Assembly: GCF_017311415.1 (NCBI RefSeq) | Contig: NZ_JAEKIS010000008.1 | Coordinates: 1 to 64,000 of the forward strand | Reading direction: 5' to 3' | DNA from: Salipiger abyssi | GTDB lineage: Bacteria > Pseudomonadota > Alphaproteobacteria > Rhodobacterales > Rhodobacteraceae | DNA length: 64,000 nt | Shown here: one piece after another, positions 1,937 through 26,901 of the stretch | Position numbering within the stretch: the first letter of the stretch is position 1 | How the letters are laid out: every line of letters begins with the position of its first letter | Notes under the pieces: model-generated | What the model saw: the letters and a program-made list of their open reading frames with translations, nothing else | The model's database searches: none | Told to the model about the DNA's origin: nothing | Translations under genes and position numbers: made by a program

Positions 1937-3115
1937 TTAGACGAAGGGGATATCGGGCTCCATCCCGGCCAGCACCCGGCCATAGAGCTCGGCATTGGTG
2001 CTGAACAGCAGGAAGGCATGGACCGAGATCGTACGGATATCGCGCAGGATCGCCGGCAGCGGATCCTTGAGATGGATCGCACTCGCACCCGAGCCCTGCT
2101 CGACGATCTCGCAGACCTCGCGGGCAAGCTTGATCGTCCAGGCAATGTCCGAGCGGCAGCGCACGCGGGTTTCCATATCCCACGCCGCGCCGGTGGCCAT
2201 ATGCTCATCGACGATCCCGGTCAGCCGCGCGGCATGGAATTCCGCCTGATCCAGCTTCGCCGTCGCCTCGGCCAATTGCAGATGCGTGACCGCCGCCTCG
2301 GACTGTTTGGAATAGCTGGTATAGGTGATGCCGCGCTTGCCGATCCGCTCCTTGAAGAGCCGCAGCGCCTTGCGCGCCAGCCCCAGCGGCGTGCCCGTCG
2401 AGACGGCGCACATGATCGGCACGAAGGGCTGCCGGTAATACGGATTTTCCGAGATCGACGAAGGCCGGCCCTTGCCGTGCACGATATCCATGAAGGGCAC
2501 GGTGCGGTGATCGGGCACAAAGGTTTCCGGCAGCCGCACCGCGTTCGAGCCGGTGCCGATGAAGCCCGAGACATGCCAGTCGTCCTCGACCTCAAAGGCC
2601 TCCTTGGGGATCAGGCAGGCGATGGGCGGGCCACCCTCCTCCGGCATCATCGGCGCAAAGATCCAGCCGGCGTGATGCTGGCCCGAGGCAAAGGCATACC
2701 GCCCGGTAACCAGATAGCCGCCCTCGGTGCGACGGCCCTTGCCGCTGGGGGCGAACACCCCGGCAGAGCGCGGCTTGTCGCTGGCGAGGACCTCCTCGAT
2801 CGCCTGATCGCCAAAGGCGCAGATCATGTGCCCCACGGCGTTGTAGATGCAGGCCACCCACGACGCCGAGGCATCGGCCTCGGCCAGCGCCGCATAGGTT
2901 TCAAGCTGCTCGCTGGTCGTGGCCTGGCTGCCGCCGTAAGACCGGGGCAGCGTCATCTTTTCGAGCCCGCCGGCAAAGATCGCCTCGACGGCGGCATCCG
3001 CCGGGCGCCGCAATTGCAGCGTCTCGGGCGCGCTCGCCGCGATGGGATCCGCCGCCGCCTCTGCGTTTTGGACAAGCGTCATGGATCCGACAGTGTCGGT
3101 GAATTGCTGGTTCAT
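1937..3115 (-). CDS. FMN/FAD-dependent monooxygenase, acyl-CoA-dehydrogenase fold (HsaA/HpaH-like large component)
   Basis: The 392-residue protein belongs to the acyl-CoA dehydrogenase superfamily branch with a type-2 C-terminal domain, used by two-component aromatic hydroxylases such as HsaA. Recognisable segments are the N-terminal helical domain (ILR..ADAAVEAIFAGGLEKM, LPRSYGGSQATTSEQLETYA), the middle beta-domain (GGYLVTGRYAFASGQHHAGWI) and a C-terminal helical bundle ending in SVHAFLLFSTNAELYGRVLAG. The family hydroxylates phenols with reduced flavin delivered by a separate reductase, here probably the product of 632-1126. The start at 3115 follows GGAGGAGACT; an upstream ATG in the same frame lacks a Shine-Dalgarno sequence and family similarity. 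The substrate is unknown. Confidence 0.8.
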   Translation of the reverse strand: MNQQFTDTVGSMTLVQNAEAAADPIAASAPETLQLRRPADAAVEAIFAGGLEKMTLPRSYGGSQATTSEQLETYAALAEADASASWVACIYNAVGHMICAFGDQAIEEVLASDKPRSAGVFAPSGKGRRTEGGYLVTGRYAFASGQHHAGWIFAPMMPEEGGPPIACLIPKEAFEVEDDWHVSGFIGTGSNAVRLPETFVPDHRTVPFMDIVHGKGRPSSISENPYYRQPFVPIMCAVSTGTPLGLARKALRLFKERIGKRGITYTSYSKQSEAAVTHLQLAEATAKLDQAEFHAARLTGIVDEHMATGAAWDMETRVRCRSDIAWTIKLAREVCEIVEQGSGASAIHLKDPLPAILRDIRTISVHAFLLFSTNAELYGRVLAGMEPDIPFV

Positions 3116-3286
3116 AGTCTCCTCCCAAATCTGCCCGAGGCCAGCCGCCATCGGGGCAAAACGCTACACCTGTAGCGATTCCGAAGTTAGGCGGGAGAAG
3201 ATGATCGCGCAATAGATTTTTTGCCCCTCGGGATGCGGCAGATGCGGAAGGCACACGCGATGCCTTCCGCAAAGGGCTGCGAAGCG

Positions 3287-3904
3287 TCACCCCTTGGCGG
3301 CCATGAAGCTGGCGATCAGGTTGCCGTAAAACGGCAGATGCGCGCCCATGTTTTCGGCCAGCGCCTGCCCGGTGGGCTTGCGCCAGTCGGCCTGCAACTC
3401 GGCGGCCACCGCGACCCAGGTGATCGGCTTGACACCGCCCTGCACCATGCGGGCGACGGCGACTTCCTGCACCAGCTTGTTCCAGGTGCCCGACGCGTCG
3501 ATCACCGCGTAGACGTCATAGCCCGCCTGCACTGCCGAGAGCGCCACGAAGGCCACGCAGACCTCGGTCGAGACACCCGCCACGATCAGCTTCTTGCGCC
3601 CGGTCTTTTCGACCTCGGCAACGAAATCGGCATTGTCCCAGGCGTTGATCTCGCCGGGGCGCTGGATCACCGGCGCGTCCGGCAGATGGCCGGTGATGAC
3701 CGGCAGCACCGGGCCATTCGGCCCGTCCTCGGCAGAAGTGGTGATCACCGTCGGCAGGCCAAAAGACTTCGCCGTCTTGGCGAGCCCTTCGACGGCGGTC
3801 AGAAATTCCGGGACGCTCTGGTCCTGCACACCGTTGGACAGGCCAGTCTGGTGATCCACCAGCAGGACGGCGGCGTTTTCCGGGGTCAGTCTCTCATTGC
3901 TCAT
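3287..3904 (-). CDS. Isochorismatase-family cysteine hydrolase (YcaC-like)
   Basis: This 205-residue protein has the alpha/beta fold signatures of the isochorismatase family: the strand ending in LLVDHQTGL carries the catalytic Asp17, and KKLIVAGVSTEVCVAFVAL carries the nucleophile Cys116 after the conserved non-proline cis-peptide region. RPGEINAWDN and ASGTWNKLVQE are typical of the YcaC-like subgroup, whose physiological substrates are mostly unknown (amide or imide hydrolysis is common in the family). A strong inverted-repeat operator (3988-4007) lies just upstream, and a TetR gene follows it on the same strand, so the hydrolase is probably the regulator's direct target. Confidence 0.85.
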   Translation of the reverse strand: MSNERLTPENAAVLLVDHQTGLSNGVQDQSVPEFLTAVEGLAKTAKSFGLPTVITTSAEDGPNGPVLPVITGHLPDAPVIQRPGEINAWDNADFVAEVEKTGRKKLIVAGVSTEVCVAFVALSAVQAGYDVYAVIDASGTWNKLVQEVAVARMVQGGVKPITWVAVAAELQADWRKPTGQALAENMGAHLPFYGNLIASFMAAKG

Positions 3905-4746: not shown

Positions 4747-5424
4747 TCAGTCTGATCGCCACCAGGAAAACACCGCCGGCCCGCGCGCATTGAGTGCAGC
4801 ACCCGTCCTGTCCAACGCCGCCCCGATTGCAGCCTCTTCCGCGCCGAGCGCACGCAGCAGCATCGTTACCGTCTCGTGAATAAACCCCTCGCCCCCTGCC
4901 CCGCCGGCAATGCGCTTGAGAGCGGCAAATGTGATGCCGACGCAGATCCAGGCGGCGTTGTCCACATCCGTGATGCGGAAAGCACCACGGGCCCGCCCCT
5001 CGCGGAGATCGGCGAGGATGTATTGCAGCAAGAGGTTGTCCTGCGGCAGCTCCTGAATATGGCTGGTGAAGGCGGCAAAGCTGCGGTCGCTCAAACCGCG
5101 ATAGAGAAACAGCTGAAACCCCATCGCCACCCGCTCGACCGGCGCGGACAGCGGGCTGTAGACCTCTTCCATATCGAGGATCATCTGCCGCGCCAGATCC
5201 GCGCCATGGGCAGAGACCGCATCTTCTAGCGACGGGAAATACTTGTAGAACGTGCCCTTCGAGATGCTCGCCACCTTGAGGATGTCGTCCAGCGTCGCCG
5301 GGATTTCCTTCGGGCCAGGGTAATGCGCGCCGACCACCGAGAGGATCTGCTGCCGCCGCCGTTCGCGCCGCATCTGCGCGACGCGCGGGCGGTGATCGTG
5401 CTTTTCCGGTTGTTCCTCGCCCAT
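4747..5424 (-). CDS. TetR/AcrR-family transcriptional regulator, divergent to the Mo enzyme
   Basis: From the start at 5424 the protein has 225 residues. A basic N-terminus (RPRVAQMRRERRRQQILSVV) precedes the helix-turn-helix TLDDILKVASISKGTFYKYF, followed by PSLEDAVSAHG; the rest is a helical ligand domain. The start at 5424 is chosen over in-frame upstream codons because it lies closest to the domain; the ribosome-binding site is weak in all cases, so this is uncertain. The gene diverges from the molybdenum enzyme operon at 5716, and an imperfect palindrome at 5620-5648 lies in the shared gap, so control of that operon is likely. Confidence 0.8.
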   Translation of the reverse strand: MGEEQPEKHDHRPRVAQMRRERRRQQILSVVGAHYPGPKEIPATLDDILKVASISKGTFYKYFPSLEDAVSAHGADLARQMILDMEEVYSPLSAPVERVAMGFQLFLYRGLSDRSFAAFTSHIQELPQDNLLLQYILADLREGRARGAFRITDVDNAAWICVGITFAALKRIAGGAGGEGFIHETVTMLLRALGAEEAAIGAALDRTGAALNARGPAVFSWWRSD

Positions 5425-5619
5425 CGCCGCGCCTGCTCTCCGCTCGCTTCGACCTCTCATAAGCCATGCCGCCACGAGGGTCCATCGGGGCGGGATTCGC
5501 GACGCCTGCCAGCAAGGGCGCACAGCGCTGTATCCCCAAGCTGCTGATATTTTCCAAAAAACAACAAAATAAAGAAATTGTTTGACGGATCGTCACGCCA
5601 GTGCGAGCCTAAAGTCATA

Positions 5620-5715: not shown

Positions 5716-8697
5716 ATGACCCAAACGCTCAAGCTCAGGACGATTCTGTCCGCGCTTCCGGGGGCCGTGCGGCTGGCCGCCCGGCTGCTCGATCCGGTGA
5801 AGGCACATCTGGAAACCGGCAATCACACGGTGCAGCTGCGCCTGCGCGACGGCAGCCTCAGCCGCCACATCACCTTCAAAAAAGGCAAGATCACCGCCGG
5901 TTGGGGGCGGCATGAGGCGCCCGATGCCGAGATCGTCTTCATGGACACATCCACGGCGCTGAAGATGCTCCAGCCCAAGACGGATTACGCCTTCCTCATC
6001 GACGCGCTGAAGAACTTCAAGATCACCCAGACCGGCGACGACGCGGTGCTGCTCTGGTTCGGCCAGCTCGTCGATACGATCAACACCGCCAGCATGAAGC
6101 GCGGCACCAAGATGCCCGACGGCACCATGCGCTATACCAACCTCACCAATGGCGGGCCGCTCTTCGTCTATGTGAAAGACGGCAAGATCCTGCGGACCAC
6201 GCCCATCGACCTCGCCGAGGACGACGCCGAAAGCTGGACGCTGGAGGCGCGCGGGCGCAGCTTCACCCCACGCCGTCAGGCAACGCTCAGCCCGCATGCG
6301 CTGGGGATGAAAAGCCAGGTCTATTCCGACAAGCGCATCCTCCACCCGATGAAGCGGGTCGACTGGGATCCGAACGGCGAGCGCAACCCTCAGAACCGCG
6401 GCAAATCCGGCTATGAGCGGATCAGCTGGGACGAGGCCTTCGACCTCGTCGCCTCGGAAATCCGCCGGATGAAGACCGAGTACGGCCCCGGCGCCATCGC
6501 CGCGGCACCTCCCGCGCATCACCAATGGGGCAATCTCAACTACTGGCTGAGCGCGCTTCTGCGCTTTTCCAACCTCATCGGCGCGACGCGGGTCGAGTTC
6601 AGCCCGATCAGCTGGGAAGGCTGGTACTGGGGCGCGACCCATCATTTCGGCAACAGCATCCGGCTCGGCCTGCCGGGCTTTTACGGCACGGTGCAGGATT
6701 GCCTCGATCATGCCGAGCAGATCGTTTTCTGGGGCAGCGACCCGGAGACGACCAATGGGATCTATGCCGGGTTCGAAGGCACCGAGCGGCGGCTCTGGGC
6801 CAAGGAGCTGGGGATCGAGTTCATCCATATCGACCCGCACAAGACCGCCACCGCGCAGCTCTTGGGCGGCACCTGGGTGCCGGTCCGCCCGGGCACCGAC
6901 GCGGCGCTGGCCATCGCGATCATGCATGAATGGATGGAGAGCGGCAGCTACGACAAGGACTATGTCGCCACCCGCACCACCGGCTTTGACGAATGGGAGG
7001 CCTATGTGCTGGGCCACGAGGACGGCGTGCCGAAAACCCCCGAATGGCAGGAAGAGGAAACCGGCGTGCCCGCCCATGTGGCCCGCGCGCTGGCCAGGCA
7101 ATGGGCGGGGAAAAAGACCTATCTCGCCGCCGGGGGCCTTGGCGCCGGGTTCGGCGGGCCCTGCCGGGGCGGCGGCGGCGCGCAATGGGCGCGCGCCATG
7201 GTCATGCTGATGGCGATGCAGGGCTGGGGCAAGCCAGGGATCAATTTCGGCAACCTCCAGATGGGCGCACCGCAGGATTACAATTTCTACTTCCCCGGCT
7301 ATGCGGATGGCGGCATCTCGGGCGACGTGGTCAACAGTGCCAGCGTCATGCACAACTATGTGCGCATGCCGCATATCGTCACCATCAACCCGGTGAAACA
7401 GGCGATCCCGCGCCAGCGGCTGGCCGATGCCATCGTGACCGGCAAGGCCGAGGGCTACTACTGGGACGGGTTCTCGGCCGAGGGCCAGTTCGTCAAGATG
7501 GAATACCCGCGCCCCGGCTTTTCGCCCGTGCATATGTATTACCGCTACGGCGCCTCGTCGCTGGGCACGGTGCCGGGCTCGAACCGCATGGTCGAGGCCT
7601 ATCGCCACGAGAGTCTCGAAACGGTCGTCACGCAGGCGATCTGGATGGAGAACGAGGCGCAGTTCGCCGATATCATCCTGCCCGCCTGCACCTCTTTCGA
7701 GCGCGACGACATCTCGGAAAGCGCCAATTGCGCGGGCTATATCCATCACAACCAGAGCCAGCTCAATCACCGCGTGATCGTGATGCAGCACAAGGCCATC
7801 GAGCCGCTGGGCGAGTCGAAATCCGACTACCAGATCTTTGCCGGGATCCTGACACGGCTCGGCATGGGCGCGATGTTCACCGAGGGCGGCTGTTCCGATC
7901 TGACCTGGTGCAAGCGGATCTTCGAGTCGACCGATCTGGCGGACAAGATCAGCTGGAAGGCGTTTCTCAAGAAGGGCTACTACATCGTGCCCACCCCCGC
8001 CGATCATGCGCAGCAGGAGGTGGATATGCGCTGGTTCGCCGAGGGCCGCACCAAGAACCTGCCCGAACCGAACCCGCTTCCGGCGGTCTACAGCCAGGGC
8101 TTCGGGCAAGGGCTCGGCACCCAATCGGGCAAGTTCGAGTTTGTGCCCGGCTCGCTGAAACGGCTGGGCGATCTCGACCCGGCACGCCCCGCGGTCAACC
8201 GCTACATGCGCCCGCCCAACACGACGACCAAGGCCGGAGACTCGCCCTGGCCCCTGCAACTCATCACCGCGCATCCGCGCTACAGCTTCCACACCCAGTC
8301 GGACGGCAAGAACAGCGCGGTCAACGAGATCGCCGATCACCGCGTGTTGGTCGACGGCCACCGCTACTGGATCGTGCGGATGAACCCCGAGGATGCCGCC
8401 GCGCGCGGCGTCGCCGACGGCGAGCTGGTCAAGGTGCATAACGACCGGGGCGCCGTGCTCTGCGCCGCGCGGGTGACGCCGCTGATGGCGCGCGGGGTGA
8501 TCGGCTCCTGGGAATCCTGCGCCGAATACGATCCCGTCGACACGCCTGACGGGCCGGTGGATCGCGGCGGATGCCTCAACCTGCTGACCCCCGCCCGGAC
8601 CATGAGCCGCATGGCCGACGGGATCACCCCCAATAACTGTCTCATCCAGATCACCCGCTGGGCGGATGTGAACGCCACCGAGGAGGCCGCCGCATGA
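5716..8697 (+). CDS. Molybdopterin enzyme large subunit, pyrogallol transhydroxylase / resorcinol hydroxylase type, with N-terminal SCP2-like domain
   Basis: This 993-residue protein starts at 5716 after GAGGGAGGAAGGA. Residues about 130-990 are a DMSO-reductase-family bis-MGD subunit without the usual N-terminal 4Fe-4S cysteine motif: GYERISWDEAFDLVASEIRR, SWEGWYWGATHHFGNS, IVFWGSDPETTNG and C-terminal molydopterin-binding SFHTQSDGKNSAVNE. The missing cluster, the length of that part and the downstream ferredoxin-like subunit match the alpha subunit of pyrogallol-phloroglucinol transhydroxylase (Pelobacter) and its relative, resorcinol hydroxylase (Azoarcus). Residues about 25-115 (HTVQLRLRDGSLSRHITFKK ... 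DTSTALKMLQ) resemble an SCP2 sterol-carrier fold, an addition I do not associate with the Pelobacter enzyme. No twin-arginine signal is seen, so it should be cytoplasmic. The substrate is unproven; a polyhydroxybenzene or other aromatic is likely. Confidence 0.8.
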   Translation: MTQTLKLRTILSALPGAVRLAARLLDPVKAHLETGNHTVQLRLRDGSLSRHITFKKGKITAGWGRHEAPDAEIVFMDTSTALKMLQPKTDYAFLIDALKNFKITQTGDDAVLLWFGQLVDTINTASMKRGTKMPDGTMRYTNLTNGGPLFVYVKDGKILRTTPIDLAEDDAESWTLEARGRSFTPRRQATLSPHALGMKSQVYSDKRILHPMKRVDWDPNGERNPQNRGKSGYERISWDEAFDLVASEIRRMKTEYGPGAIAAAPPAHHQWGNLNYWLSALLRFSNLIGATRVEFSPISWEGWYWGATHHFGNSIRLGLPGFYGTVQDCLDHAEQIVFWGSDPETTNGIYAGFEGTERRLWAKELGIEFIHIDPHKTATAQLLGGTWVPVRPGTDAALAIAIMHEWMESGSYDKDYVATRTTGFDEWEAYVLGHEDGVPKTPEWQEEETGVPAHVARALARQWAGKKTYLAAGGLGAGFGGPCRGGGGAQWARAMVMLMAMQGWGKPGINFGNLQMGAPQDYNFYFPGYADGGISGDVVNSASVMHNYVRMPHIVTINPVKQAIPRQRLADAIVTGKAEGYYWDGFSAEGQFVKMEYPRPGFSPVHMYYRYGASSLGTVPGSNRMVEAYRHESLETVVTQAIWMENEAQFADIILPACTSFERDDISESANCAGYIHHNQSQLNHRVIVMQHKAIEPLGESKSDYQIFAGILTRLGMGAMFTEGGCSDLTWCKRIFESTDLADKISWKAFLKKGYYIVPTPADHAQQEVDMRWFAEGRTKNLPEPNPLPAVYSQGFGQGLGTQSGKFEFVPGSLKRLGDLDPARPAVNRYMRPPNTTTKAGDSPWPLQLITAHPRYSFHTQSDGKNSAVNEIADHRVLVDGHRYWIVRMNPEDAAARGVADGELVKVHNDRGAVLCAARVTPLMARGVIGSWESCAEYDPVDTPDGPVDRGGCLNLLTPARTMSRMADGITPNNCLIQITRWADVNATEEAAA

Positions 8698-9530
8698 GCG
8701 CGAAATGGACCCTGACCGTGGATCTCGATCTTTGCGTGAACTGCCACAACTGCGTGCTGGCCACCAAGGACGAGCATATCGGCAACGACTTCCCCGGCTA
8801 TTCCGCCGCCCAGAGCGGCGCCGGGGTCGACACGATCCGCATAGACAAGCATCAGCGCGGCAGCGGTACGCAGGTCGAGCTGACCTATGTGCCGCGCATG
8901 TGCGGCCATTGCGACGATGCCCCCTGTCTCAAGGCCGACACCACCGGCGCGCTGCGCAAGCGCGAAGACGGGATCGTGCTGCTCGACCCGGAACAGGCAC
9001 ACGCACCGGGGCTGGAGGCGCTCTGCCCCCTCGGCATGATCCGGCGCGACGCAGGCACGGGTGCGGCGCATCTGTGGAGCTTCGACGCACATCTGCTCGA
9101 TACAGGATGGGAGATGCCGCGCGCCGTGCAGGCCTGCCCGACCTCGGCGCTGCAATGCGCAAAGCTCGACAATGACGCGCTGGCGCAGCGGGTGGCGCGT
9201 GACGGGCTTGAGGTTTTTCCCGGCATGGAGGCAGCGAAACCGAGGGTCTATTACAAGAACATGCAGCGGCTCACCCATGCGCTTGTGGCCGGCACGGTCT
9301 TGCAGGAGACAGACGGGCGGCCTGACTGCGCGGCGGGCATCACCGTTGCCTTGCACGAGGACGGCAAGGAACGGGCACGCACCGTGACCAACGGATTCGG
9401 CGAGTTCGCCTTTGCCGAGATCCCGCCGCAGGTCAACCGGATCGAGCTGCGCCTCTCGACACCGGACGGCGCGGAAAAAACGGTTCCGCTGGAGCTGTCG
9501 CACCCGCATCCGGTCGAAATCCGCCTCTGA
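8694..9530 (+). CDS. Iron-sulfur small subunit of the transhydroxylase-type Mo enzyme
   Basis: This 278-residue protein has its ATG overlapping the large-subunit stop by 4 bases, indicating translational coupling. N-terminal CVNCHNC, then MCGHCDDAPC, LCPLGM and QACPTSALQC supply cysteines for several 4Fe-4S clusters in a DmsB/NrfC-like ferredoxin fold. The last about 75 residues (DCAAGITVALHEDGKERARTV..., NGFGEFAFAEIPP) form a carboxypeptidase-regulatory/transthyretin-like beta domain. A ferredoxin part followed by such a beta domain, at about 275 residues, is the architecture of the transhydroxylase beta subunit. It probably transfers electrons or stabilises the catalytic subunit. Confidence 0.85.
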   Translation: MSAKWTLTVDLDLCVNCHNCVLATKDEHIGNDFPGYSAAQSGAGVDTIRIDKHQRGSGTQVELTYVPRMCGHCDDAPCLKADTTGALRKREDGIVLLDPEQAHAPGLEALCPLGMIRRDAGTGAAHLWSFDAHLLDTGWEMPRAVQACPTSALQCAKLDNDALAQRVARDGLEVFPGMEAAKPRVYYKNMQRLTHALVAGTVLQETDGRPDCAAGITVALHEDGKERARTVTNGFGEFAFAEIPPQVNRIELRLSTPDGAEKTVPLELSHPHPVEIRL

Positions 9531-9863: not shown

Positions 9864-10607
9864 ATGAAGGGTCTTAAGGGTAAGACAGCCATTGTCACCG
9901 GCGGTGCCAATGGTATCGGGAAGGCGTTTGTCATGCGCCTTGCCGAAGAGGGCGCCAATGTGGTGATCGCCGATATCGCCCCGGCAGAAGAGGTCGTGGC
10001 AGAGGCGGAAAAGCTGGGCGTCAAGGCGCTGGCCATCCATTGCGACATGTCCTCGGGCGAGAGCATCGCCGCGATGGGCCAGCAGGTTGCCGACGAGATG
10101 GGCGGCTGCGACATCCTCGTCCACAACGCCGGTATCTATCCGGCGCAGCTTTTCGAAGAAATGTCCTTTGACGACTGGCGCCGGGTGCTGACAATCAATC
10201 TCGACTCGATCTTTCATCTGACCAAGGCGGTTTTGCCGGGCATGAAGGAAAAGGGCTGGGGACGGATCATCGCGATCTCCTCGACCACCTTCCACTCGGG
10301 TCTCGCCTATAACAGCCATTACAGTGCCTCCAAGGCCGGGCTGATCGCCTTTGCACGCGCCCTCGCCTCGGAAAGCGGCGAGTTCGGCATCACCGTGAAC
10401 ACCATCGCGCCCGGCCTCGTGCGCACGCCCACCACCGAAGGCGGCCCGCAATCGCAATGGTTCGACATGCTGGCACAGCAACAGGCGATCAAGCGCACCG
10501 AGACACCCGCCGACCTTGTCGGGCCGATGGCGTTCCTCGCCTCCGACGACGCCGCTTTCGTCACTGGGCAGACCCTGCTCGTGGATGGCGGCTGGCGCTT
10601 CGTCTGA
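9864..10607 (+). CDS. Short-chain dehydrogenase/reductase
   Basis: The protein has 247 residues and is a classical SDR. The cofactor motif TGGANGIGK covers residues 12-20, Asp37 after the second strand suggests NAD(H) preference, NAG is at 88-90, and the catalytic Ser140, Tyr153 and Lys157 (YSASK) are all present. The C-terminus VTGQTLLVDGGWRFV is typical. It is the first gene of a + strand operon (SDR, SDR, VOC protein, then GntR) behind an AT-rich operator-like region; GGGAGGAAAAC precedes the ATG. Role: oxidation of a hydroxyl or reduction of a keto group in the catabolic route; the substrate cannot be told from sequence. Confidence 0.9.
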   Translation: MKGLKGKTAIVTGGANGIGKAFVMRLAEEGANVVIADIAPAEEVVAEAEKLGVKALAIHCDMSSGESIAAMGQQVADEMGGCDILVHNAGIYPAQLFEEMSFDDWRRVLTINLDSIFHLTKAVLPGMKEKGWGRIIAISSTTFHSGLAYNSHYSASKAGLIAFARALASESGEFGITVNTIAPGLVRTPTTEGGPQSQWFDMLAQQQAIKRTETPADLVGPMAFLASDDAAFVTGQTLLVDGGWRFV

Positions 10608-10637: not shown

Positions 10638-10668
10638 CATATCCACCGAAACCGGAAGGAGAACCGCC

Positions 10669-11421
10669 ATGGGACGCGTTCAGGGAAAATCCGCCATCGT
10701 CACCGGCGCCGGCAGCGGCATGGGTCAGGCCCATGCCCGCGCGCTGGCCCGCGAGGGCGCGCAGGTCTTTGCCACCGATGTCAACGAGGAGGGGCTGGCC
10801 GAAACCCTGCGCCTCATCACCGAGGCGGGCGGCACGGCCAAGGTGCGCAAGCATGACGTCTCCAAGGAAGAGGACTGGGAGGCAGTCGTGGCCGAGGCCC
10901 TCGACGCCTTCGGCAAGATCGACATTCTGGTGAACAATGCCGGCGTCTACACCGTCGCCAATGCCGAGGACTGCACGCTCGACCAGTGGGATTTCGTGAT
11001 GAATATCAACGCCCGCGGCACCTTCATGGGCGTGAGGGCGGTGATACCGCATATGAAGACCACGGGCGGCGGCGCGATCGTTAACGTGTCGTCGAATTTC
11101 GCCATGGTGGGCCGGCCCGGCTTTTCCATCTACTGCGCCTCGAAGGGCGCGGTGCGGCTCTTTACCAAGGCGGTCGCCGCCGAGGTGGCGGAGGACGGCA
11201 TCCGGGTGAACTCGCTGCATCCCGGCGTGATCGCGACCCCGATGACGGCGGATCTGATTGCCACGCCGGAAGGGCTCGACCAGCTGCTCGGCGGCGCACC
11301 GCTGCGCCGCGCGGCGCAGCCGGAGGAGATCGCCAACGCGGTGCTCTACCTCGCCTCCGACGAGTCCCGCTTCATGATCGGTTCGGAGCTGGTCATCGAC
11401 GGCGGCTATGCCAGCGTCTGA
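10669..11421 (+). CDS. Short-chain dehydrogenase/reductase (second paralogue)
   Basis: This 250-residue classical SDR has TGAGSGMGQ at residues 12-20, Asp37, NNAG near 89-92, Ser141, Tyr155 and Lys159 (YCASK), and ends GSELVIDGGYASV. The start at 10669 follows GGAAGGAGA; an open frame continues upstream, but it runs over the previous gene's end without similarity. It lies 61 bp after another SDR and 24 bp before the VOC gene, so the three are probably co-transcribed. Two SDRs in one operon suggest successive or stereospecific oxidations of one substrate; which is unknown. Confidence 0.9.
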   Translation: MGRVQGKSAIVTGAGSGMGQAHARALAREGAQVFATDVNEEGLAETLRLITEAGGTAKVRKHDVSKEEDWEAVVAEALDAFGKIDILVNNAGVYTVANAEDCTLDQWDFVMNINARGTFMGVRAVIPHMKTTGGGAIVNVSSNFAMVGRPGFSIYCASKGAVRLFTKAVAAEVAEDGIRVNSLHPGVIATPMTADLIATPEGLDQLLGGAPLRRAAQPEEIANAVLYLASDESRFMIGSELVIDGGYASV

Positions 11422-11445: not shown

Positions 11446-11934
11446 ATGACACATGAAAACCTGCCCGGGCGGCTGTTCCAGATGGGCATTGTCGTGCCCG
11501 ACATGAAGGCCGCCATTGCCTATATGCAGACCACCATGGGCACGGGCCGCTTCATGACCCTGCCCGCCGAGCCGAAGGTGACCTGGTTTCGCGGCAATAT
11601 GGAGGAGGTCTCCTACGAGATGGCCTTCGGCTATTTGGGCGATATGCAGATCGAGCTGATGATGCCGGTCTCCGGGCGCTCGACCTATGCCGAATATCTC
11701 GAACGCGTGCCCACAGGCGGGGTGCATCACCTCGGCTTCGAGGTCACCGAGTTCGACCCCGCCGTGGCGGAGATGGAGGCCCGTGGCTTCCAGGCGGTGC
11801 AGAAGGGCAGCTTTGGCGACACCCGCTTCAACTATTACGAACACCCCGACGATAAGGGCACGCTCGTCGAAATCCTCTATCTCGACAGCGCCGTGAAGGA
11901 GATGTTCGCCACAATCGCCGATCAGAGCTTCTGA
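11446..11934 (+). CDS. VOC-superfamily protein (glyoxalase/epimerase-like)
   Basis: This 162-residue protein has one paired beta-alpha-beta-beta-beta VOC fold: LFQMGIVVPDMKAAIAYMQT at the start, IELMMPVSGRSTYAEYL in the middle, GGVHHLGFEVTEFDPAVAEM for the second module and FNYYEHPDDKGTLVEILYL at the end. His in VHHLGF and Glu in LVEIL are candidate metal ligands. Relatives are annotated as glyoxalase or methylmalonyl-CoA-epimerase-like. It is preceded by GGAGGAGAG and sits in the SDR operon. The function in the pathway is unknown; an isomerase or lyase step is possible. Confidence 0.8.
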   Translation: MTHENLPGRLFQMGIVVPDMKAAIAYMQTTMGTGRFMTLPAEPKVTWFRGNMEEVSYEMAFGYLGDMQIELMMPVSGRSTYAEYLERVPTGGVHHLGFEVTEFDPAVAEMEARGFQAVQKGSFGDTRFNYYEHPDDKGTLVEILYLDSAVKEMFATIADQSF

Positions 11935-12034
11935 CCCGGCCCACCGCGCGGGGCGATGCGGAGTTGTTGCCGGATTGCCCCGCGTGTAGTTTGTCCTCCG
12001 GACGGCAGGCCGGTGGCTTGGAAGGGTAAGGCTC

Positions 12035-12739
12035 ATGCAAAAGAAATCCGGCGAGACCGGCAGCAAGGCAACCGTCGCGGAAAGCGTCTACGACCGGATC
12101 CGTTGGGACATTATCCTCGGCATCCTGCCGCCGGGAAAGGTGCTGAAATCCGACTGGATGCGCGGGCAGTATTCGGTGGGCATCAGCCCGCTGCGCGAGG
12201 CACTGACCCGGCTCTCCTCCGAACGGCTGATCGTCGCCGAAAGCCAGCGCGGCTTTCGCGTCGCGCCGCTGGACGAGGACGAGGTGCAGGACGTGCTGAA
12301 CACGCGCATCCTGATCGAGACGCAGGCGCTGCGCGATGCCATCGCCACCGGCGACGTCGCCTGGGAGGGGCGGATTCTGGCGGCTTATCATGTGCTCTCG
12401 CGCACGCCGATCCCGCAGCCGGGCGAGACCGGCTCTTTCGACTGGATCGAGGCGCACAAGGATTTCCACATGCAACTGCTCTCGGCGAGCAGCTCGCGCT
12501 GGCTGAAATATCTCGCCGGGCTTCTGTTCGATCAGTCCGAGCGCTACCGCGCCTTCCGCACAGCACACAGCGCCGAGGCGGCGCTGACTCGCGATGTCTC
12601 GCAGGAACACGAGCGCATCCTGAGCGCCTGCCTGGCCCGCGAGGCCGAGGAGGCCTGCGACGCGCTCGAAGCGCATTACCGCTCGACCTCGCAGGCGGTG
12701 ATCAGCGATCTGCACGAGGGCAAGGCGCCGGAGATGTAA
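12035..12739 (+). CDS. GntR-family regulator, FadR/FCD subgroup
   Basis: This 234-residue protein has an N-terminal winged helix (VAESVYDRIRWDIILGILPP, LKSDWMRGQYSVGISPLREALTRLSSERLIV in part) typical of GntR, and a C-terminal all-helical FCD ligand domain (ILIETQALRDAIATGD ... HKDFHMQLLSAS ... EHERILSACLARE). The Asp/His positions that often bind metal in FCD domains appear to be present. It sits at the centre of two catabolic operons whose promoters both have TTGGAAA-type inverted repeats, so it is the best candidate to control them. The effector is unknown. Confidence 0.9.
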   Translation: MQKKSGETGSKATVAESVYDRIRWDIILGILPPGKVLKSDWMRGQYSVGISPLREALTRLSSERLIVAESQRGFRVAPLDEDEVQDVLNTRILIETQALRDAIATGDVAWEGRILAAYHVLSRTPIPQPGETGSFDWIEAHKDFHMQLLSASSSRWLKYLAGLLFDQSERYRAFRTAHSAEAALTRDVSQEHERILSACLAREAEEACDALEAHYRSTSQAVISDLHEGKAPEM

Positions 12740-13894: not shown

Positions 13895-14782
13895 TCAGTC
13901 GAGAAACCCTTCCGGCGGGGGCGTGCCCCACATATTGGCGCCGAGCTGGATATCCTCCCAGACCTTGCCGCTCTTTTGCGGAAATTCCTGGTGGTAGGGG
14001 CGCGGATCGTAGCAATCCAGCGCCTCATTCACCCGGTCCAGCTCGCAGAACAGCTCGATGATCTGCCCGTCGGCATTGCGGTGATAGGTCGAGATATTGT
14101 GCCCGATCCCATGCCGCACCGGCCCCCAGACCAGCGGAATGCGGTCCTGCGCCAGCCAGTCGCAGGCGTCGCGGATATGGGTCCAGTCGCGCAGCTCAAA
14201 GGCGATGTGGTGCATCTTGGTCTTCTGCCCCTGCACCAGATTGATGGTGTGGTGATCCGGGCCGCAGCGCAGGAAGGCAAAGAAATCGCCCATCCAGTCG
14301 CTGACCTTAAATCCCAGAACCTCGCAGTAGAATTTCACCGTCGATTGCACATCGGTGCAGTTATAGGCCACATGGCCCAGCTTGTTCGGCACGATGCCCT
14401 GCGGCTGAAACCCGATATTGGCGGTCTCGGCCGAGACGAAGGCCTCGATATTCGTGCCCTTGTTGTCGCTGAACACCAGCGCCTCGGAAATCGAGGGCTG
14501 CGGATCGGATTGGCGCTTGGCGCTCAGCCCATGGCTCTCGATCTGCCTGGCATACTCGCCCAGATCGGTGCCCGGCGGCAGCTGAAAACCCAGCGTGTCG
14601 CAGCGGGCTTCCGACCCCTTGCGCAGCACCACCGTGTGGTGATCGGCGCTGGCCGAGAGATAGGCGGCGGCGCTGTCGCGCGCGACGAGCGTCAGCCCCA
14701 TGATTTTGGTGTAATGCTCGATCTGTGCGTCCAGATCGGGGGTTTCAAAGACCGCATAGACGATACGGTTGACGGTGATCAT
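13895..14782 (-). CDS. Two-domain VOC enzyme, type I extradiol ring-cleavage dioxygenase-like
   Basis: This 295-residue protein has two VOC modules. The C-terminal one contains the candidate Fe/Mn ligands His in KLGHVAYNC, His in KMHHIAFEL and Glu in DGQIIELFCE, in the order and spacing of type I extradiol dioxygenases (BphC/XylE superfamily). RHGIGHNISTYHRNADGQII resembles the extradiol signature but has Ala where Pro is usual, a variation seen in outlying members. It should open a catechol-like or trihydroxybenzene ring next to one hydroxyl. The neighbouring FAH-type hydrolase would then act on the ring-opened product. The substrate is inferred from context only. Confidence 0.75.
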   Translation of the reverse strand: MITVNRIVYAVFETPDLDAQIEHYTKIMGLTLVARDSAAAYLSASADHHTVVLRKGSEARCDTLGFQLPPGTDLGEYARQIESHGLSAKRQSDPQPSISEALVFSDNKGTNIEAFVSAETANIGFQPQGIVPNKLGHVAYNCTDVQSTVKFYCEVLGFKVSDWMGDFFAFLRCGPDHHTINLVQGQKTKMHHIAFELRDWTHIRDACDWLAQDRIPLVWGPVRHGIGHNISTYHRNADGQIIELFCELDRVNEALDCYDPRPYHQEFPQKSGKVWEDIQLGANMWGTPPPEGFLD

Positions 14783-14794: not shown

Positions 14795-15673
14795 TCAGAC
14801 GAATGTGTTTTCCAGCGTACCCAGCCCCTCGACGGTGACGCGTGCCACATCGCCGGGTTTGAGGAATTCCTGCGGATCGCGGCCAAAGCCCACGCCCGCC
14901 GGGGTTCCAGTGGCGATGATGTCGCCGGGCTCCAGTGTCATCATCCCGGCCAGATGCCGCAGGATGTCGGCGACGCCGAAGATCATCCGCCCGGTATTGG
15001 ATTTCTGCTTCACCACACCGTTGACGGTCAGTTCGATGTCGAGATCGCCGGGGTCGGCCACATAGCGCGCCGGGGTGATCCAGGGGCCCGTGGGCTGGAA
15101 CTTGTCCCAGGATTTCTGCATCACCCAGTCGATGCCCACGAAGGGCCGGTTGTGAATCCAGTCCCGCGCCGAAAGGTCGTTCAGCACGGTATAGCCCGCC
15201 ACCGCCTCCAGCGGATCGCCCTTGTCCGAGGGGCCGTAGCGGCGGCCCATGACGATGCCCAGCTCCGCCTCCCAATCGTACATCTTGGCGCCCTCGGGCA
15301 GCGGAATCTCTTCGCCATGCGCGGCGAGACAGGTCTGCGGGCGCATGAAGCCGTAGGGAAACTCCGGCAGGTGGGTGACCTTCATCTCTTCGAGATGGTC
15401 GTGGTAATTGGTGCCGATGCAGACCAGCTTGCGCGGATTGGCGATGGGCGTCTCATAGGCCAGCGTTTCCGGGTCGAGCCCGTCACCGCTCACATTCTCG
15501 CAGGCGGTGGCGATCTCGTCCTCATAGTGCGGCCAGTCGGCAAAGACCGCCTCCAAGGTCTCAGGCGCCCTCTCGCCCAGAAGCGCGGCGAGCGTATGGG
15601 CACGGCCCGCCACGAGCACCATCGGTGTCGCCGAGCCGTCGATCCGCGCCGTTCCCAGCTTGTACTCCGTCAT
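14795..15673 (-). CDS. Fumarylacetoacetate hydrolase (FAH) family protein
   Basis: The protein has 292 residues from MTEYKLGTARID. Characteristic FAH motifs are KLVCIGTNYHDHLEEM, PYGFMRPQTCLAAHGEEIPLP, DWEAELGIVMGRR (metal ligands E-x-E region), GYTVLNDLSARD and GDIIATGTPAGVGFGR. Members hydrolyse C-C bonds of acylpyruvates or act as decarboxylases/hydratases (for example gentisate and homoprotocatechuate routes). The open frame is longer, but the domain and the usual start lie at 15673. It lies 12 bp from the extradiol-type gene and 17 bp from the dehydrogenase gene, so they form an operon. Likely role: hydrolysis of the ring-cleavage product. Confidence 0.9.
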   Translation of the reverse strand: MTEYKLGTARIDGSATPMVLVAGRAHTLAALLGERAPETLEAVFADWPHYEDEIATACENVSGDGLDPETLAYETPIANPRKLVCIGTNYHDHLEEMKVTHLPEFPYGFMRPQTCLAAHGEEIPLPEGAKMYDWEAELGIVMGRRYGPSDKGDPLEAVAGYTVLNDLSARDWIHNRPFVGIDWVMQKSWDKFQPTGPWITPARYVADPGDLDIELTVNGVVKQKSNTGRMIFGVADILRHLAGMMTLEPGDIIATGTPAGVGFGRDPQEFLKPGDVARVTVEGLGTLENTFV

Positions 15674-20774: not shown

Positions 20775-22394
20775 TCAGCCAGCGACCAGCGCCTGACGGT
20801 CGATCTTGCCGGTGCCGGTCTTGGGCAGCTCGGCCACGTATTCGAACAGCCTTGGCGACTTGAACGGCGTGAGCTGTGCCTTGACGTAATCGCGCAGTTT
20901 CAGTGTCTGTTCGTCGCTCGCCGCCACGCCCGCGACGAGGCTGACAATGGCCCGCAACGCCATGCGCTTGTCGGCAAGCTGCACCGCCAGCACCGCGCAT
21001 TCATGCACATCCGGGTGCTCGTTCAGACAGCGCTCGACCTCCAGCGGCCAGACCCATTGCCCGGAGACCTTGATCAGATCGTCGGCGCGGCCCTGGAAGT
21101 AATAGAACCCGTCGCGTTCGATGAAGCGGTCGCCGGTATAGATCCAGTCGCCGCGCATGGTCTCGGCGGTCTTGTCCGGGCGGTTCCAGTAGGTCGGCGC
21201 CGAGGAATGCCCGCGCACGAACATCACCCCCTCCTCGCCCGGCTCGGCCGGCACGCCGTCCGGTGTCTCCAGCCGCACCTCATAGCCCGGCACCCGCGCC
21301 CCCGCCGCGCCGATCCGGTGATCGTCAAGCGCGTTCGACAGATACACATGCAGCAGTTCGGTGGAGCCCAGCCCCTCGGTCGGCCCATGGCCCACCAGCT
21401 CTTTCCAGGTGTTATAGACATCTTCCGACAGGATCTCGGCGGCTGACATGGACTGGCGCAGCGAGCTCAGATCATGCGCCTCCAGCGCGGCACTGCGGGC
21501 GAGCGCCGTATAGAGCGTCGGCAGGCCGAACAGCACCGTCGGGCGATAGATCTCGATGGCGCCCAGCACCACGTCGGGGCGCGGCTGGCCCGGCATGAAC
21601 AGCGTCGTCGCGCCGGTGCAGAACGGAAAGACCAGCGAATTGCCGAACCCGTAGGCGAAATAGGCCTTGGGCACGGAATAGCAGATATCGTCCTCGCGCA
21701 GCTTGAGGATATGGTCGCCGAAACTCTGCTGGATATAGGCCATGTCGTGATGCAGATGCACGATGCCCTTGGGCCGCCCGGTGGAGCCCGAGGAATACAT
21801 CCAGAACGCCATGTCGTCGGGGCCGGTATCGGCGGCCTCCAGCTCGGTCCCGTGGCCGTCGAGGAAGGTCGCCGCCCCGATCCGGCCCGGCCCGGTCACA
21901 TCGCCATTGGTGACCACGATGGTCTCCAGCTGCGTGCCCTTCAGCGTGTCGCCGGAAAAGATCGCCGACAGCTCCGCATCGACCACCGCATAGCGTGCCT
22001 CGGTATCCTGAAGGAAATATTGCAGCACGTCCGGACGGGTCTGGATATTGAGCAGAACCGGCACGAACCCTGCCCGAACCGCACCAAAGAACGCAGCCGC
22101 AAAGGCCGGCGTGTCGTCGAGAAAGAACGCGATCCGCTCGCCGCGCGCCAGCCCGGCATCGGCAAATGCATTGCCCCAGCGCGCCGCCTCGGCGATCAGC
22201 TCGGCATAGCTCATATGCCCAAGCGGGCCGATCACGGCGGTCTTGTCGGGGTTCCGGCTCAGGTTCTGCCAGAGGATTTCGGACCCGTTCGGGTGATCGG
22301 CCTTCACATAGCCGATCTCGTCGGCGCCGGGGGTGCGCTCGGCGACGGGGTCGGGGATGGCGCCGGTCGCATGTGTGCTGGTCATATCCGTCAT
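20775..22394 (-). CDS. Benzoate-CoA ligase family AMP-forming ligase
   Basis: This 539-residue protein has the ANL-superfamily P-loop-like motif MYSSGSTGRPKGIVHLHHDM, the benzoate-ligase-typical YSVPKAYFAYGFGNSLVFPF, the adenine/ribose motif YTGDRFIERDGFYYFQGRAD and the C-terminal catalytic Lys in LPKTGTGKIDRQAL. The family activates benzoate, 2-aminobenzoate or hydroxybenzoates with ATP and CoA. Its operon partner, a salicylyl-CoA-5-hydroxylase-like flavoprotein, and the divergent thioesterase suggest salicylate or a related ortho-substituted benzoate as substrate. ATG at 22394 is used; a second ATG three codons on is also possible. Confidence 0.88.
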   Translation of the reverse strand: MTDMTSTHATGAIPDPVAERTPGADEIGYVKADHPNGSEILWQNLSRNPDKTAVIGPLGHMSYAELIAEAARWGNAFADAGLARGERIAFFLDDTPAFAAAFFGAVRAGFVPVLLNIQTRPDVLQYFLQDTEARYAVVDAELSAIFSGDTLKGTQLETIVVTNGDVTGPGRIGAATFLDGHGTELEAADTGPDDMAFWMYSSGSTGRPKGIVHLHHDMAYIQQSFGDHILKLREDDICYSVPKAYFAYGFGNSLVFPFCTGATTLFMPGQPRPDVVLGAIEIYRPTVLFGLPTLYTALARSAALEAHDLSSLRQSMSAAEILSEDVYNTWKELVGHGPTEGLGSTELLHVYLSNALDDHRIGAAGARVPGYEVRLETPDGVPAEPGEEGVMFVRGHSSAPTYWNRPDKTAETMRGDWIYTGDRFIERDGFYYFQGRADDLIKVSGQWVWPLEVERCLNEHPDVHECAVLAVQLADKRMALRAIVSLVAGVAASDEQTLKLRDYVKAQLTPFKSPRLFEYVAELPKTGTGKIDRQALVAG

Positions 22395-22499
22395 CTGGTC
22401 TCCGTGACGTCGGCAAACGGGGGCCGTGGGGCGCCCGCCAAAGGCGCCCTGCCCCTCTCGTTGCAGGGGTTGAGAGAACCGGGGGCCGCGCCCCCGCGT

Positions 22500-23642
22500 T
22501 CAGCCGTGAACGGCGCTGTAGGCTTCGTAATCGGCGGCGAATTTCGGCGCGATCTGATGCAGCCGCTCCGGCGTCATCCGGCCCGAGCGCATCAGGTAAT
22601 CATGCGCGAAATCCATCGGCGCGAGCCGCAGCTTCTCGCCAAAGCTCTCGTACCAGGTGGCCGAGGTGTTGGCGGCATCGACGATCTTGCGTGCCACCGG
22701 CGGGCGCTGCGCCTGATAGGCGGCCAGCGCCTCGTCGATATCGTCGTGATCCTTCAGCGCATGGATGAGCGCAATCGCGTCCTCCATGGCCAGCCGCGTG
22801 CCCGACCCGATGGAGAAATGCGCCGTATGCACCGCATCGCCCAGCAGCACGTTGCGCCCGGCGATCCAGCTTTCGCACCAGAGCCGCGGGAACTGCCGCC
22901 AGTTGGATTTGTTCATCACCAGATCGGTGCCCTTGAGCACATCAGCAAACAGCGTGCTGCACAGCTTGGCGCTTTCTTCCTCGCTCATCGCGTCAAAGCC
23001 AAAGGCCTTGTAGGTCGCATCCTCGCATTCGACGATGAAGGTGCTGCGATCCGGCGCAAAGCGGTAGTGATGCGCGTTGAGCGGGCCCTTGTCGGTCTCG
23101 ATAAAGGTCTGGGTCAGCGTATCAAAGGGAATGGTCGCGCCGAACCAGGCGAAGTGGTTGTCGAAATACTCGATGGTCGGCTTGAACTGGTCTTCCAGCG
23201 ACTGGCGCATCAGCGAGTTCAGCCCGTCGGCGCCGATCACCAGATCCGCGTCGAACTCGTCGAGCGATGAGATATGGGTCTTGAAACGGATCTCGACGCC
23301 CAGGTCGCGGGCGCGGTCCTTGAGGATCTCGATCAGCTCCAGCCGCCCCACGGCGGTAAAGCCCACGCCGTCCAGCGTCACCTGCCCCTTCGGCAGGTTC
23401 AGCGTCATGTCCTGCCAGCGCTCCATATGCGGCACGATCAGGTCATGGGTCTCGGCATCGTCGGCTTTCAGGAAATCGAGCGCGCGGTCGGAAAACACCA
23501 CACCGAATCCAAAGGTCGCGCCTTCCGGATTCTGCTCGGTCACCCGCACTTTCACATGCGGCAGCAGCCGGCGGATCAGGATCGCGGTGTAGAGCCCACC
23601 GGGCCCTCCCCCCAGAATTTCGATGGTCGACAGCTGAGACAT
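22500..23642 (-). CDS. FAD-dependent aryl-CoA hydroxylase, salicylyl-CoA 5-hydroxylase-like
   Basis: This 380-residue flavoprotein has an N-terminal dinucleotide motif GGGPGGLYTAILIRR, the segment ATFGFGVVFSDRALDFL, and near the C-terminus LLGDAVHTAHFSIGSGTRLA, where GD-x-x-HTAHFSIGSG is distinctive of the salicylyl-CoA 5-hydroxylase / 2-aminobenzoyl-CoA monooxygenase group. In that family, the aryl-CoA ester is hydroxylated with NAD(P)H and O2, giving gentisyl-CoA from salicylyl-CoA. Here only the hydroxylase domain is present, not the C-terminal old-yellow-enzyme domain of the bifunctional forms. It leads the minus-strand operon with the CoA ligase and TRAP genes. Confidence 0.82.
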   Translation of the reverse strand: MSQLSTIEILGGGPGGLYTAILIRRLLPHVKVRVTEQNPEGATFGFGVVFSDRALDFLKADDAETHDLIVPHMERWQDMTLNLPKGQVTLDGVGFTAVGRLELIEILKDRARDLGVEIRFKTHISSLDEFDADLVIGADGLNSLMRQSLEDQFKPTIEYFDNHFAWFGATIPFDTLTQTFIETDKGPLNAHHYRFAPDRSTFIVECEDATYKAFGFDAMSEEESAKLCSTLFADVLKGTDLVMNKSNWRQFPRLWCESWIAGRNVLLGDAVHTAHFSIGSGTRLAMEDAIALIHALKDHDDIDEALAAYQAQRPPVARKIVDAANTSATWYESFGEKLRLAPMDFAHDYLMRSGRMTPERLHQIAPKFAADYEAYSAVHG

Positions 23643-24916: not shown

Positions 24917-25525
24917 TCAGCCCCCGGCGGGCACAGTCAGCCCGTCATCCTCCAGCCGCTCACGGTCGGGCAGATCGCTGAGGCTCTCCAGATCGAAGGC
25001 CACGAGGAACTGCTCGGTGGTCACGAAAGTATAAGGCGCCCCCCGGCGCGGGCTGCGCGGACCGGTGGCGATGAGCTTGCGCGCGTTCAGCCGCCCGATC
25101 AGGTCGCGCGCGATCTCCTTGCCAAAGATATCCTTGAGCCCGTCGCGGGTGATCGGCTGGTGATAGGCGATGGCCGCCAGCACCGCGATGTCGAACTCGT
25201 TCAGGTCGAGCACCTGCTGCCCCACATCCGCCGCCGCCCGGATCGCCGGCGCATAGGCCGGACGGGTGCGCAGGATCCAGCCGCCGGTCACCGCCGCCAC
25301 CGCAAAGGCGCGGCCTTCCAGATCGGCGGCAAGATCCTCGACCAGCAATTCGACCGAAGCGCCCTGCCCCACGACCCGCGCCAGATCCTCGCGCGGCACC
25401 GGCGACGCGCTGGCGAACAGCACCGCCTCGATACGCCGCATCCATTCGCGCCAGCGCAGCTCCGGCGGCAGATCCGCGAGATCGCGGTCGAGATCCGGTT
25501 CGGCGCGGTCCTCTGCCATGCTCAC
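24917..25525 (-). CDS. scpB: ScpB-like segregation and condensation protein
   Basis: This 202-residue protein has the two-winged-helix pattern of ScpB: RRIEAVLFASASPVPREDLA, then VTGGWILRTRPAYAPAIRAA, LDLNEFDIAVLAAIAYHQPI and ITRDGLKDIFGKEIARDLIG, finally GAPYTFVTTEQFLVAFDLES. ScpB works with ScpA as regulator of SMC in chromosome condensation and segregation. Neither ScpA nor SMC is in the window, so this is an orphan copy on the repABC replicon. The GTG start at 25525 overlaps the stop of the upstream gene (GTGA); an ATG two codons later is the alternative. It is the downstream partner of the DUF1403 gene. Confidence 0.88.
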   Translation of the reverse strand: MSMAEDRAEPDLDRDLADLPPELRWREWMRRIEAVLFASASPVPREDLARVVGQGASVELLVEDLAADLEGRAFAVAAVTGGWILRTRPAYAPAIRAAADVGQQVLDLNEFDIAVLAAIAYHQPITRDGLKDIFGKEIARDLIGRLNARKLIATGPRSPRRGAPYTFVTTEQFLVAFDLESLSDLPDRERLEDDGLTVPAGG

Positions 25526-26866: not shown

Positions 26867-26882
26867 GTTTACCGGGGTAACC
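26867..26882. promoter_or_regulatory. parS-like partition site 1
   Basis: GTTTACCGGGGTAACC fits the GTTnnCnnnnGnnAAC pattern of repABC parS sites except for the last bases, and is a near-perfect palindrome. It is one of three related sites downstream of repC; a fourth lies between repB and repC. RepB is the expected ligand. Confidence 0.6.
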
Positions 26883-26901
26883 CCGAAGAAGACACAGGGC
26901 G

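Follow-up and report, generated by a model that had tools for sequence, protein, structure and literature searches.

The stretch analyzed here, 64,000 nucleotides of Salipiger abyssi DNA from contig NZ_JAEKIS010000008.1 (hereafter the window), encodes at positions 5716 to 9530 a two-subunit molybdenum enzyme of the transhydroxylase type, whose catalytic subunit carries an additional N-terminal domain with the SCP2 fold. Its closest characterized relative is the pyrogallol-phloroglucinol transhydroxylase of Pelobacter acidigallici (PgtL/PgtS, hereafter TH, with residues numbered as in PDB entry 4v4c). Tentatively, and with confidence a little short of even, we predict that the enzyme acts on lipophilic phenols, as a hydroxyl transferase or a hydroxylase, without electron export, the SCP2 domain serving as substrate carrier. 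The coordinates given for the enzyme in a preliminary description of this DNA were correct, with one gene running from the ATG at 5716 to the stop at 8697 and the second from the ATG at 8694 to 9530, so that the two genes share a 4-base overlap (8694-8697). The features of the pair are the following:

5716..8697, forward strand: large subunit, a bis-molybdopterin guanine dinucleotide (bis-MGD) enzyme (ATG start, 993 amino acids)
5716..6096, forward strand: SCP2-like domain of the large subunit, residues 1-127 (AlphaFold model, PDB fold matches, weak PF02036)
6127..8697, forward strand: TH-type bis-MGD catalytic core, residues 138-993 (match to 4v4c_A; Pfam Molybdopterin, Molydop_binding and AhtL-like_1st; tree)
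6517..6522, forward strand: His-His pair, in which His268 corresponds to TH His144 (His in 96/96 fused proteins)
6601..6621, forward strand: SPISWEG motif, in which Ser299 corresponds to TH Ser175 (Mo ligand) and Ile298 replaces TH Asp174
8694..9530, forward strand: iron-sulfur small subunit, its C-terminal part beta-sandwich-like (ATG start, 278 amino acids; PDB 4v4c_B, Fer4_11)
9075..9086, forward strand: Trp128-Ser-Phe-Asp131 of the small subunit, where TH has Cys126-x-x-Cys129 (Trp and Asp/Glu in 86/89 proteins)

When the PDB sequences were searched, residues 138-983 of the large subunit matched TH (4v4c_A) with 929.6 bits (E = 2.1e-278). The runners-up were trimethylamine N-oxide (TMAO) and dimethyl sulfoxide (DMSO) reductases, at 258 bits and lower; thiosulfate reductase (2vpw) and acetylene hydratase (2e7z) reached 84.6 and 57.3 bits. 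The PhsA model scored 121.3 bits (cut-off 694) and Pfam AhtL-like_1st (PF21423) 97.8 bits (cut-off 27), and the small subunit matched that of TH (4v4c_B) with 151.7 bits, as well as Pfam Fer4_11. These results bear out the transhydroxylase-type assignment first made from the sequence, and the large subunit groups with transhydroxylase rather than with thiosulfate/polysulfide reductases both by score (929.6 vs 84.6 bits) and in the tree described below. The large subunit had also been described as lacking an N-terminal iron-sulfur motif, and indeed its first cysteine is only residue 329. Membership among the thiosulfate/polysulfide reductases, the acetylene hydratases or the DMSO/TMAO reductases is ruled out by the PDB scores.

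Ten TH residues, which we take to be the Mo ligand or the surroundings of the substrate, were mapped onto 96 SCP2-fused proteins. His144, Ser175, Trp176 and Tyr404 are each kept in 96/96, Tyr152 in 95/96, Tyr560 in 85/96 and Cys557 in 27/96. Trp354 is changed to Phe in 73/96 and Phe468 to Trp in 73/96, and the window enzyme shows both changes. Position 174 is Asp in 77/96 and Ile in 19/96, the window being among the 19 (SPISWEG vs NPDSWEG), and Asp174 is retained in all nine unfused proteins (L107-L115). In total, the window enzyme keeps His144, Tyr152, Ser175, Trp176, Tyr404, Cys557 and Tyr560 of the ten mapped residues; the serine Mo ligand, His144 and Tyr404 of the TH active site are thus present and its Asp174 is not, Ile298 standing in its place.

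In the predicted structure, the fold of residues 1-127 is that of SCP2. The sequence signal is weak: against PF02036 (SCP2), which has a gathering cut-off of 21.3, residues 1-128 scored 18.5 bits and the full-length protein 14.1, and 7 of 50 aligned members matched it at E ≤ 0.01. SCP2 chains were not found among the PDB sequences either by phmmer or by a profile search. The AlphaFold model was built from 48 sequences (L010 and L013 were omitted from the structure alignment); the best model had a pLDDT of 88.6 and a pTM of 0.77, with 77-80 for the remaining four models. Its elements follow the order helix-helix-four strands-helix-helix-strand-helix, the N-terminal helix spanning residues 2-24. 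A fold search returned 31 PDB matches at E ≤ 0.001, which were sorted by entry titles into 18 SCP2/UbiJ chains (both AF1534 entries included) and 13 chains of the alkylsulfatase/YjcS group. The TM-scores were moderate, at 0.56/0.68 for the top match (3bn8_A) and 0.57/0.69 for the best (6h6o_B). The domain therefore misses the Pfam gathering score and matches SCP2 by its fold, in agreement with the SCP2-like N-terminus noticed beforehand, and this fold rules out a chance match, despite the PDB sequence searches.

The descent of the fusion was followed in a catalytic-core tree of 63 proteins, namely 52 of the 96 fused ones, 10 unfused ones and the outgroup L002, with column 174 masked. The tree came from a quick search with Shimodaira-Hasegawa-like approximate likelihood ratio (SH-aLRT) support and no bootstrap. 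Its sampling is biased, as the fused proteins were drawn from the best-scoring 80 loci and the unfused ones are the PDB TH and nine proteins of one phylum sample. L016 (Sinorhizobium terangae) was excluded from alignments and counts because its N-terminal part is missing, L097, L098, L099 and L103 were removed as duplicates of L048, L037, L058 and L084, and L116-L118 stand outside the active-site, cluster and tree counts. The match of L111 contains two internal stops, and its 855-residue open frame (TH 2-863) was used. All 52 SCP2-fused proteins formed one clade (SH-aLRT 100), with Pelobacter TH and L111 as neighbours. The fusion label changes once on the tree, and so does the Ile-174 label, the Ile clade comprising 13 tree proteins (SH-aLRT 93). 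On the present sampling, these sequences suggest that the fusion of SCP2 to the catalytic subunit arose once. The fused enzymes form one clade beside Pelobacter TH, which supports the proposal that they make up a distinct subclass.

The fusion is not special to the S. abyssi genome, since at least 526 of the 593 stretches matched in a GTDB pattern scan encode relatives. Among the best 80 GTDB loci, 77 match from query residue 1-11, and L066, L058 and L090 from residues 23, 70 and 80; the reading frames of L066 and L090 hit contig edges. SCP2-fused loci occur in dozens of further species, and plasmid pPABY2 of S. abyssi (locus L009), the twin of the window, carries a 98.1% identical copy, which together rule out an orphan fusion or an assembly artefact. 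The distribution of the family is patchy. Members were found in 3 of 394 genomes of its own bacterial family (own genome included), in 1 of 398 of its own phylum (the own genome only) and in 3 of 300 of the order of genome G394 (G394 included). The phylum of a Deltaproteobacteria metagenome-assembled genome (MAG) gave 8 of 297, that MAG included and fused or unfused, and the phylum of a Thermoleophilia MAG 2 of 296, that MAG included. Fused and unfused TH-type enzymes were met in one genome in G395 (L103, L111) and G1556 (L117, L118), and the two copies of G395 lie about 11.5 kb apart on one contig (C85). In S. terangae plasmid pCB3126_1, L016 (about 11857-12039) is a close relative whose match starts at query residue 126, the frame upstream containing stops. 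L113, L114 and L115 belong to a distant TH-like type (34-36% identity to TH, open frames of 906-923 residues) with a gap at the position of TH Tyr404; their host genomes also carry unfused TH, and the three are possibly a separate TH-like subfamily.

The small subunit has undergone a change of its own. We assigned the 12 TH cysteines to three [4Fe-4S] clusters by the ferredoxin rule (13/16/19/149, 68/71/76/109 and 23/126/129/145), the last of which presumably corresponds to FS2 of NarH-type subunits, between FS1 and FS3. The cysteines were counted in 105 proteins, comprising TH, 9 unfused and 95 SCP2-fused small subunits, the L102 locus having no small subunit. TH, the nine unfused proteins and six fused ones (L084, L088, L093, L104-L106) have all 12. 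Among the remaining 89 fused proteins, 86 have Trp at 126 together with Asp (84) or Glu (2) at 129, and three (L028, L038, L040) are cut short or unreadable at these positions. Of the 86 that lost the pair, three (L086, L091, L100) retain Cys23 and most retain Cys145; counted over the whole cluster, 84 have lost at least three of its four ligands. The remaining two clusters are complete, with eight ligands, in 84 of the 86, the exceptions being L089 and L096, which have Ser at 16. The window small subunit reads CCCC / TWDA / CCCC. Where several CxxC-type clusters had been reported for it, cysteines for two clusters are present (8 of 12) and the third has none of its four ligands. Outside the main count, fused L117 keeps all 12 cysteines, as read from the alignment. 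On the tree, loss of the cluster ligands takes two changes, with the Vibrio MAG L095 apart and the other 45 proteins in one clade (99.4); holding all 46 together was not rejected (approximately unbiased test, p-AU = 0.349). The C-terminal residues 198-274 of the small subunit scored 25.5 bits against CarboxypepD_reg, under the cut-off of 32.3.

Loss of the middle cluster would break the electron relay, so that electron delivery to an outside acceptor is not expected. By analogy with known relays, this would suit a reaction without net electron export, such as transhydroxylation, and would suit net oxidation of the kind performed by resorcinol hydroxylase (RhL/RhS) poorly. An enzyme of the latter kind would take its oxygen from water and send electrons out via the small subunit, the SCP2 domain being a docking or membrane-contact module. 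The accessible text of PMC10100899 places RhL and PgtL in one Ser-ligated hydroxylating family and describes RhL/RhS as donating electrons in anaerobic respiration. In favour of this reading, two of the three clusters are largely intact, as counted above, and the N-terminal helix of the model (residues 2-24) has several positions of conserved hydrophobicity, which could suit membrane contact. The linking cluster, however, is without three or four ligands in 84/86 proteins and without two in the other two, and we consider net oxidation unlikely.

In the mechanism that we propose instead, that of a carrier-assisted hydroxyl transfer, a Pelobacter-type transhydroxylase would have gained an N-terminal SCP2 domain on its catalytic subunit. 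This domain would bind a lipophilic phenol by its hydrophobic part and pass the ring to the Mo site, by analogy with UbiJ and UbiT, and the Mo centre would move or install a ring hydroxyl without O2. No electrons would leave through the small subunit, its middle cluster being lost. In relatives with Asp174 (Asp-type), the product would go to an extradiol dioxygenase (a VOC protein) and a fumarylacetoacetate-hydrolase (FAH) family enzyme, which together would open and split the ring. In the Ile-type branch, to which the window belongs, the pocket is probably more hydrophobic and the substrate probably different, and Ile in place of Asp174 suggests a different ring substituent at that position.

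Precedents for such a carrier role may be seen in UbiJ, in UbiT and in the ubiT-ubiU fusion of Zymomonas, and alkylsulfatases are among the fold matches. According to the parts of PMC6747719 accessible to us, the SCP2 domain of UbiJ binds hydrophobic ubiquinone intermediates, UbiT, also an SCP2 protein, is proposed to do likewise alongside UbiU-UbiV, hydroxylases that work without O2, and Zymomonas has a fused ubiT-ubiU gene. UbiJ, which is among the best fold matches, and UbiT thus resemble the window enzyme in their SCP2 fold and in acting beside hydroxylases of lipophilic phenols, but, as far as that text goes, they are usually separate proteins and their partners are flavin enzymes or U32 iron-sulfur proteins, not molybdenum enzymes. 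The alkylsulfatases SdsA1, Pisa1 and YjcS, the group of the 13 fold matches noted above, likewise join an SCP2-like domain to a catalytic one; they are zinc hydrolases with this domain C-terminal, at the opposite end from that of the window enzyme. Compared with Pelobacter TH (4v4c/4v4d/4v4e), the window enzyme is alike in its whole-length core, the Ser Mo ligand, His144, Trp176 and Tyr404, the paired iron-sulfur small subunit and the lack of an N-terminal Cys motif in the large subunit. It differs by the added SCP2 domain, by Ile for Asp174 and by the missing ligand set of one of three [4Fe-4S] clusters, and its locus differs by O2-dependent flavin hydroxylase-type genes nearby. The Azoarcus anaerobius RhL/RhS can be set beside it by description, as far as the accessible literature gives one, not by sequence.

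The gene context of relatives was compared on loci of at least 18 kb (47 Asp-type and 14 Ile-type) by tblastn with chosen neighbour proteins (E ≤ 1e-15, half the query). These counts are lower bounds, because an outer-membrane transport gene annotated in L009, about 5.4 kb upstream, was missed by the query. Among the Asp-type loci, an outer-membrane protein of the OmpW, FadL/TodX or DUF1302 type was found in 31/47, a VOC protein, extradiol-like or not, in 38/47, an FAH protein in 37/47, both of the latter in 36/47 and a PRK07529-type acyl-CoA synthetase in 26/47. The corresponding numbers in 35 control stretches were 0, 0, 1, 0 and 3. Fisher's test, Asp-type vs control, gave p = 4e-11 for outer-membrane proteins and p = 8e-14 for the VOC and FAH pair, values that are inflated by the relatedness of the loci, the query proteins having moreover been chosen from Asp-type loci. 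For the Asp-type relatives, this context favours a hydrophobic aromatic; nothing singles out a CoA-linked aromatic substrate. The proposal of the preliminary description that a hydrophobic or CoA-bound aromatic is presented to the Mo site is plausible. As a suggestive observation only, Pseudomaricurvus alkylphenolicus is among the carriers of the fusion (L037).

Several points weigh against hydroxyl transfer to lipophilic phenols by the window enzyme. The controls were not host-matched, 20 being from the own genome and 7 and 8 from two others (L140 was omitted). The 14 Ile-type loci gave one outer-membrane protein (L036), one VOC protein (L009), four FAH proteins and one acyl-CoA synthetase, and the VOC and FAH pair appeared in 1/14, namely in L009, the window's twin. 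Without the Asp-type context in Ile-type loci, the argument for lipophilic phenols rests mainly on relatives, being good for those of the Asp type and less strong for the window enzyme. For the Ile-type branch, it draws support from the extradiol-like and FAH genes of the window's own island, which are not a pattern common to its closest relatives. Asp174 of TH is presumably a substrate contact, and without it the window enzyme may be unable to carry out hydroxyl transfer at all. As for the small subunit, L086 and L091 still have two of the third cluster's four ligands, and unfused L118, outside the main count, lost Cys23 alone, having Asp there. Also, the cluster assignment and the term "middle cluster" rest on analogy with the ferredoxin and NarH rules.

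In a second alternative, the Ile-type enzyme of the window would have left phenol chemistry and would act on a hydrophobic substrate by hydration, dehydroxylation or oxygen-atom reduction. Ile at 174 marks one clade (19/96 fused proteins), and the window carries the Trp354 to Phe and Phe468 to Trp changes, though most Asp-type proteins share both. The neighbours of the Ile-type loci differ as well, with a MarR regulator in 11/18, an NMT1/THI5-like protein in 10/18 and an isochorismatase-family homologue in 4/18 (L009, L028, L031, L036), each in 0/71 Asp-type loci. All of the MarR and NMT1/THI5-like neighbours are in the Paraburkholderia/Burkholderia/Caballeronia/Trinickia group. The NMT1/THI5-like gene lies near the Ile-type pair in L017-L024, L026 and L027 (e.g., at 17558-18577 in L017); proteins like it are annotated as 4,5-dihydroxyphthalate decarboxylase. 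A departure from phenol chemistry is nevertheless improbable in our view, given that seven of the other nine mapped TH residues are kept in the window and that aromatic catabolic genes occur near Ile-type loci (a gentisate dioxygenase gene near L017 and, in the window, extradiol-like and HsaA-like ones).

A purely structural SCP2-like domain without bound ligand, acting in dimerisation or in docking for Mo-cofactor loading, would agree with the weak sequence similarity and the moderate TM-scores, but it is very unlikely, as the SCP2-fold matches include, by their titles, lipid- and alkyl-binding proteins and 33 of the 144 N-terminal alignment columns are at least 90% hydrophobic (a count without control).

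Carried over to the whole family, the carrier-assisted hydroxyl transfer would describe a molybdenum hydroxyl-transferase family widespread in Proteobacteria, acting on lipophilic phenols without O2 or electron export, with an SCP2 carrier, a discarded cluster and an Asp to Ile branch. In this doubtful extension, one iron-sulfur cluster would have been discarded because no through-relay was needed, the hosts would have aerobic aromatic pathways, and the window's branch would have exchanged the catalytic Asp for Ile to accept another class of substrates. The characterized transhydroxylase-type Mo enzymes belong to anaerobic metabolism, as described in PMC10100899. If the extension is true, O2-independent phenol hydroxylation also serves aerobic catabolism, via SCP2-fused enzymes of bacteria whose aromatic pathways depend on O2. 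With a lipid-carrier fold and a phenol hydroxylase independent of O2 on one polypeptide, the enzyme would parallel UbiT-UbiUV. The branch without one cluster's ligands makes the family a natural experiment on the role of the TH iron-sulfur small subunit, and this loss and the single Asp to Ile switch are two features that make the family testable. Among the titles and abstracts listed in the literature searches, none describes an SCP2-fused transhydroxylase, although absence there is not absence in print. The word SCP2 does not occur in the accessible text of PMC10100899 or PMC7028382, and among the matches listed in searches of the alkylresorcinol, sorgoleone and alkylphenol literature there was nothing on the window gene.

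The genes around the pair are as follows:

1937..3151, reverse strand: HsaA/4-hydroxyphenylacetate-3-hydroxylase-type flavin monooxygenase with acyl-CoA dehydrogenase fold (NF045629, 181.6 bits, cut-off 450)
3287..3904, reverse strand: isochorismatase-family cysteine hydrolase, YcaC-like (NF041461, 253.3 bits, cut-off 310)
4747..5523, reverse strand: divergent TetR-type regulator (TetR/AcrR annotation in the 93% identical pPABY2 counterpart)
9864..10607, forward strand: short-chain dehydrogenase/reductase (SDR) oxidoreductase, downstream of the pair (Pfam adh_short_C2)
10666..11421, forward strand: second SDR oxidoreductase (61% identity to the SDR near the Xenophilus homologue L028)
11446..11934, forward strand: VOC/glyoxalase-type protein (Pfam Glyoxalase_4)
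13895..14782, reverse strand: extradiol-dioxygenase-like VOC protein (HpaD 137 bits, catechol_2_3 130.8 bits, both under cut-off)
14795..15673, reverse strand: FAH family protein (also annotated in the S. abyssi counterpart)

The TetR-type gene, which had no Pfam match at 1e-4, is possibly the local regulator. A GntR gene also lies downstream on the forward strand, after the two SDR genes and the VOC gene. Farther along the same island, benzoate-CoA-ligase-type and salicylyl-CoA-hydroxylase-type genes occupy 20775-23642 (cehG and cehH in S. abyssi). The benzoate-CoA-ligase-family gene (20775-22394) would suit a CoA-linked aromatic substrate, but homologues of it were found in only 2/18 Ile-type and 9/71 Asp-type loci.

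The window is syntenic with pPABY2 over positions 120-26190, in three pieces at 88-95% DNA identity. ScpB-like, RepC-type, ParB/RepB-type and ParA-type genes are located at 24917-30907, the last three types within 27160-30907, and these replication and partition genes indicate that the locus is probably on a repABC replicon. Like pPABY2, the whole contig of the window, 220,631 bases long, is probably a plasmid or chromid of the repABC type. It also encodes a second protein of the DMSO-reductase family (G000:C8:160144-162225), the outgroup L002 of the tree, with 29% identity to the window protein.

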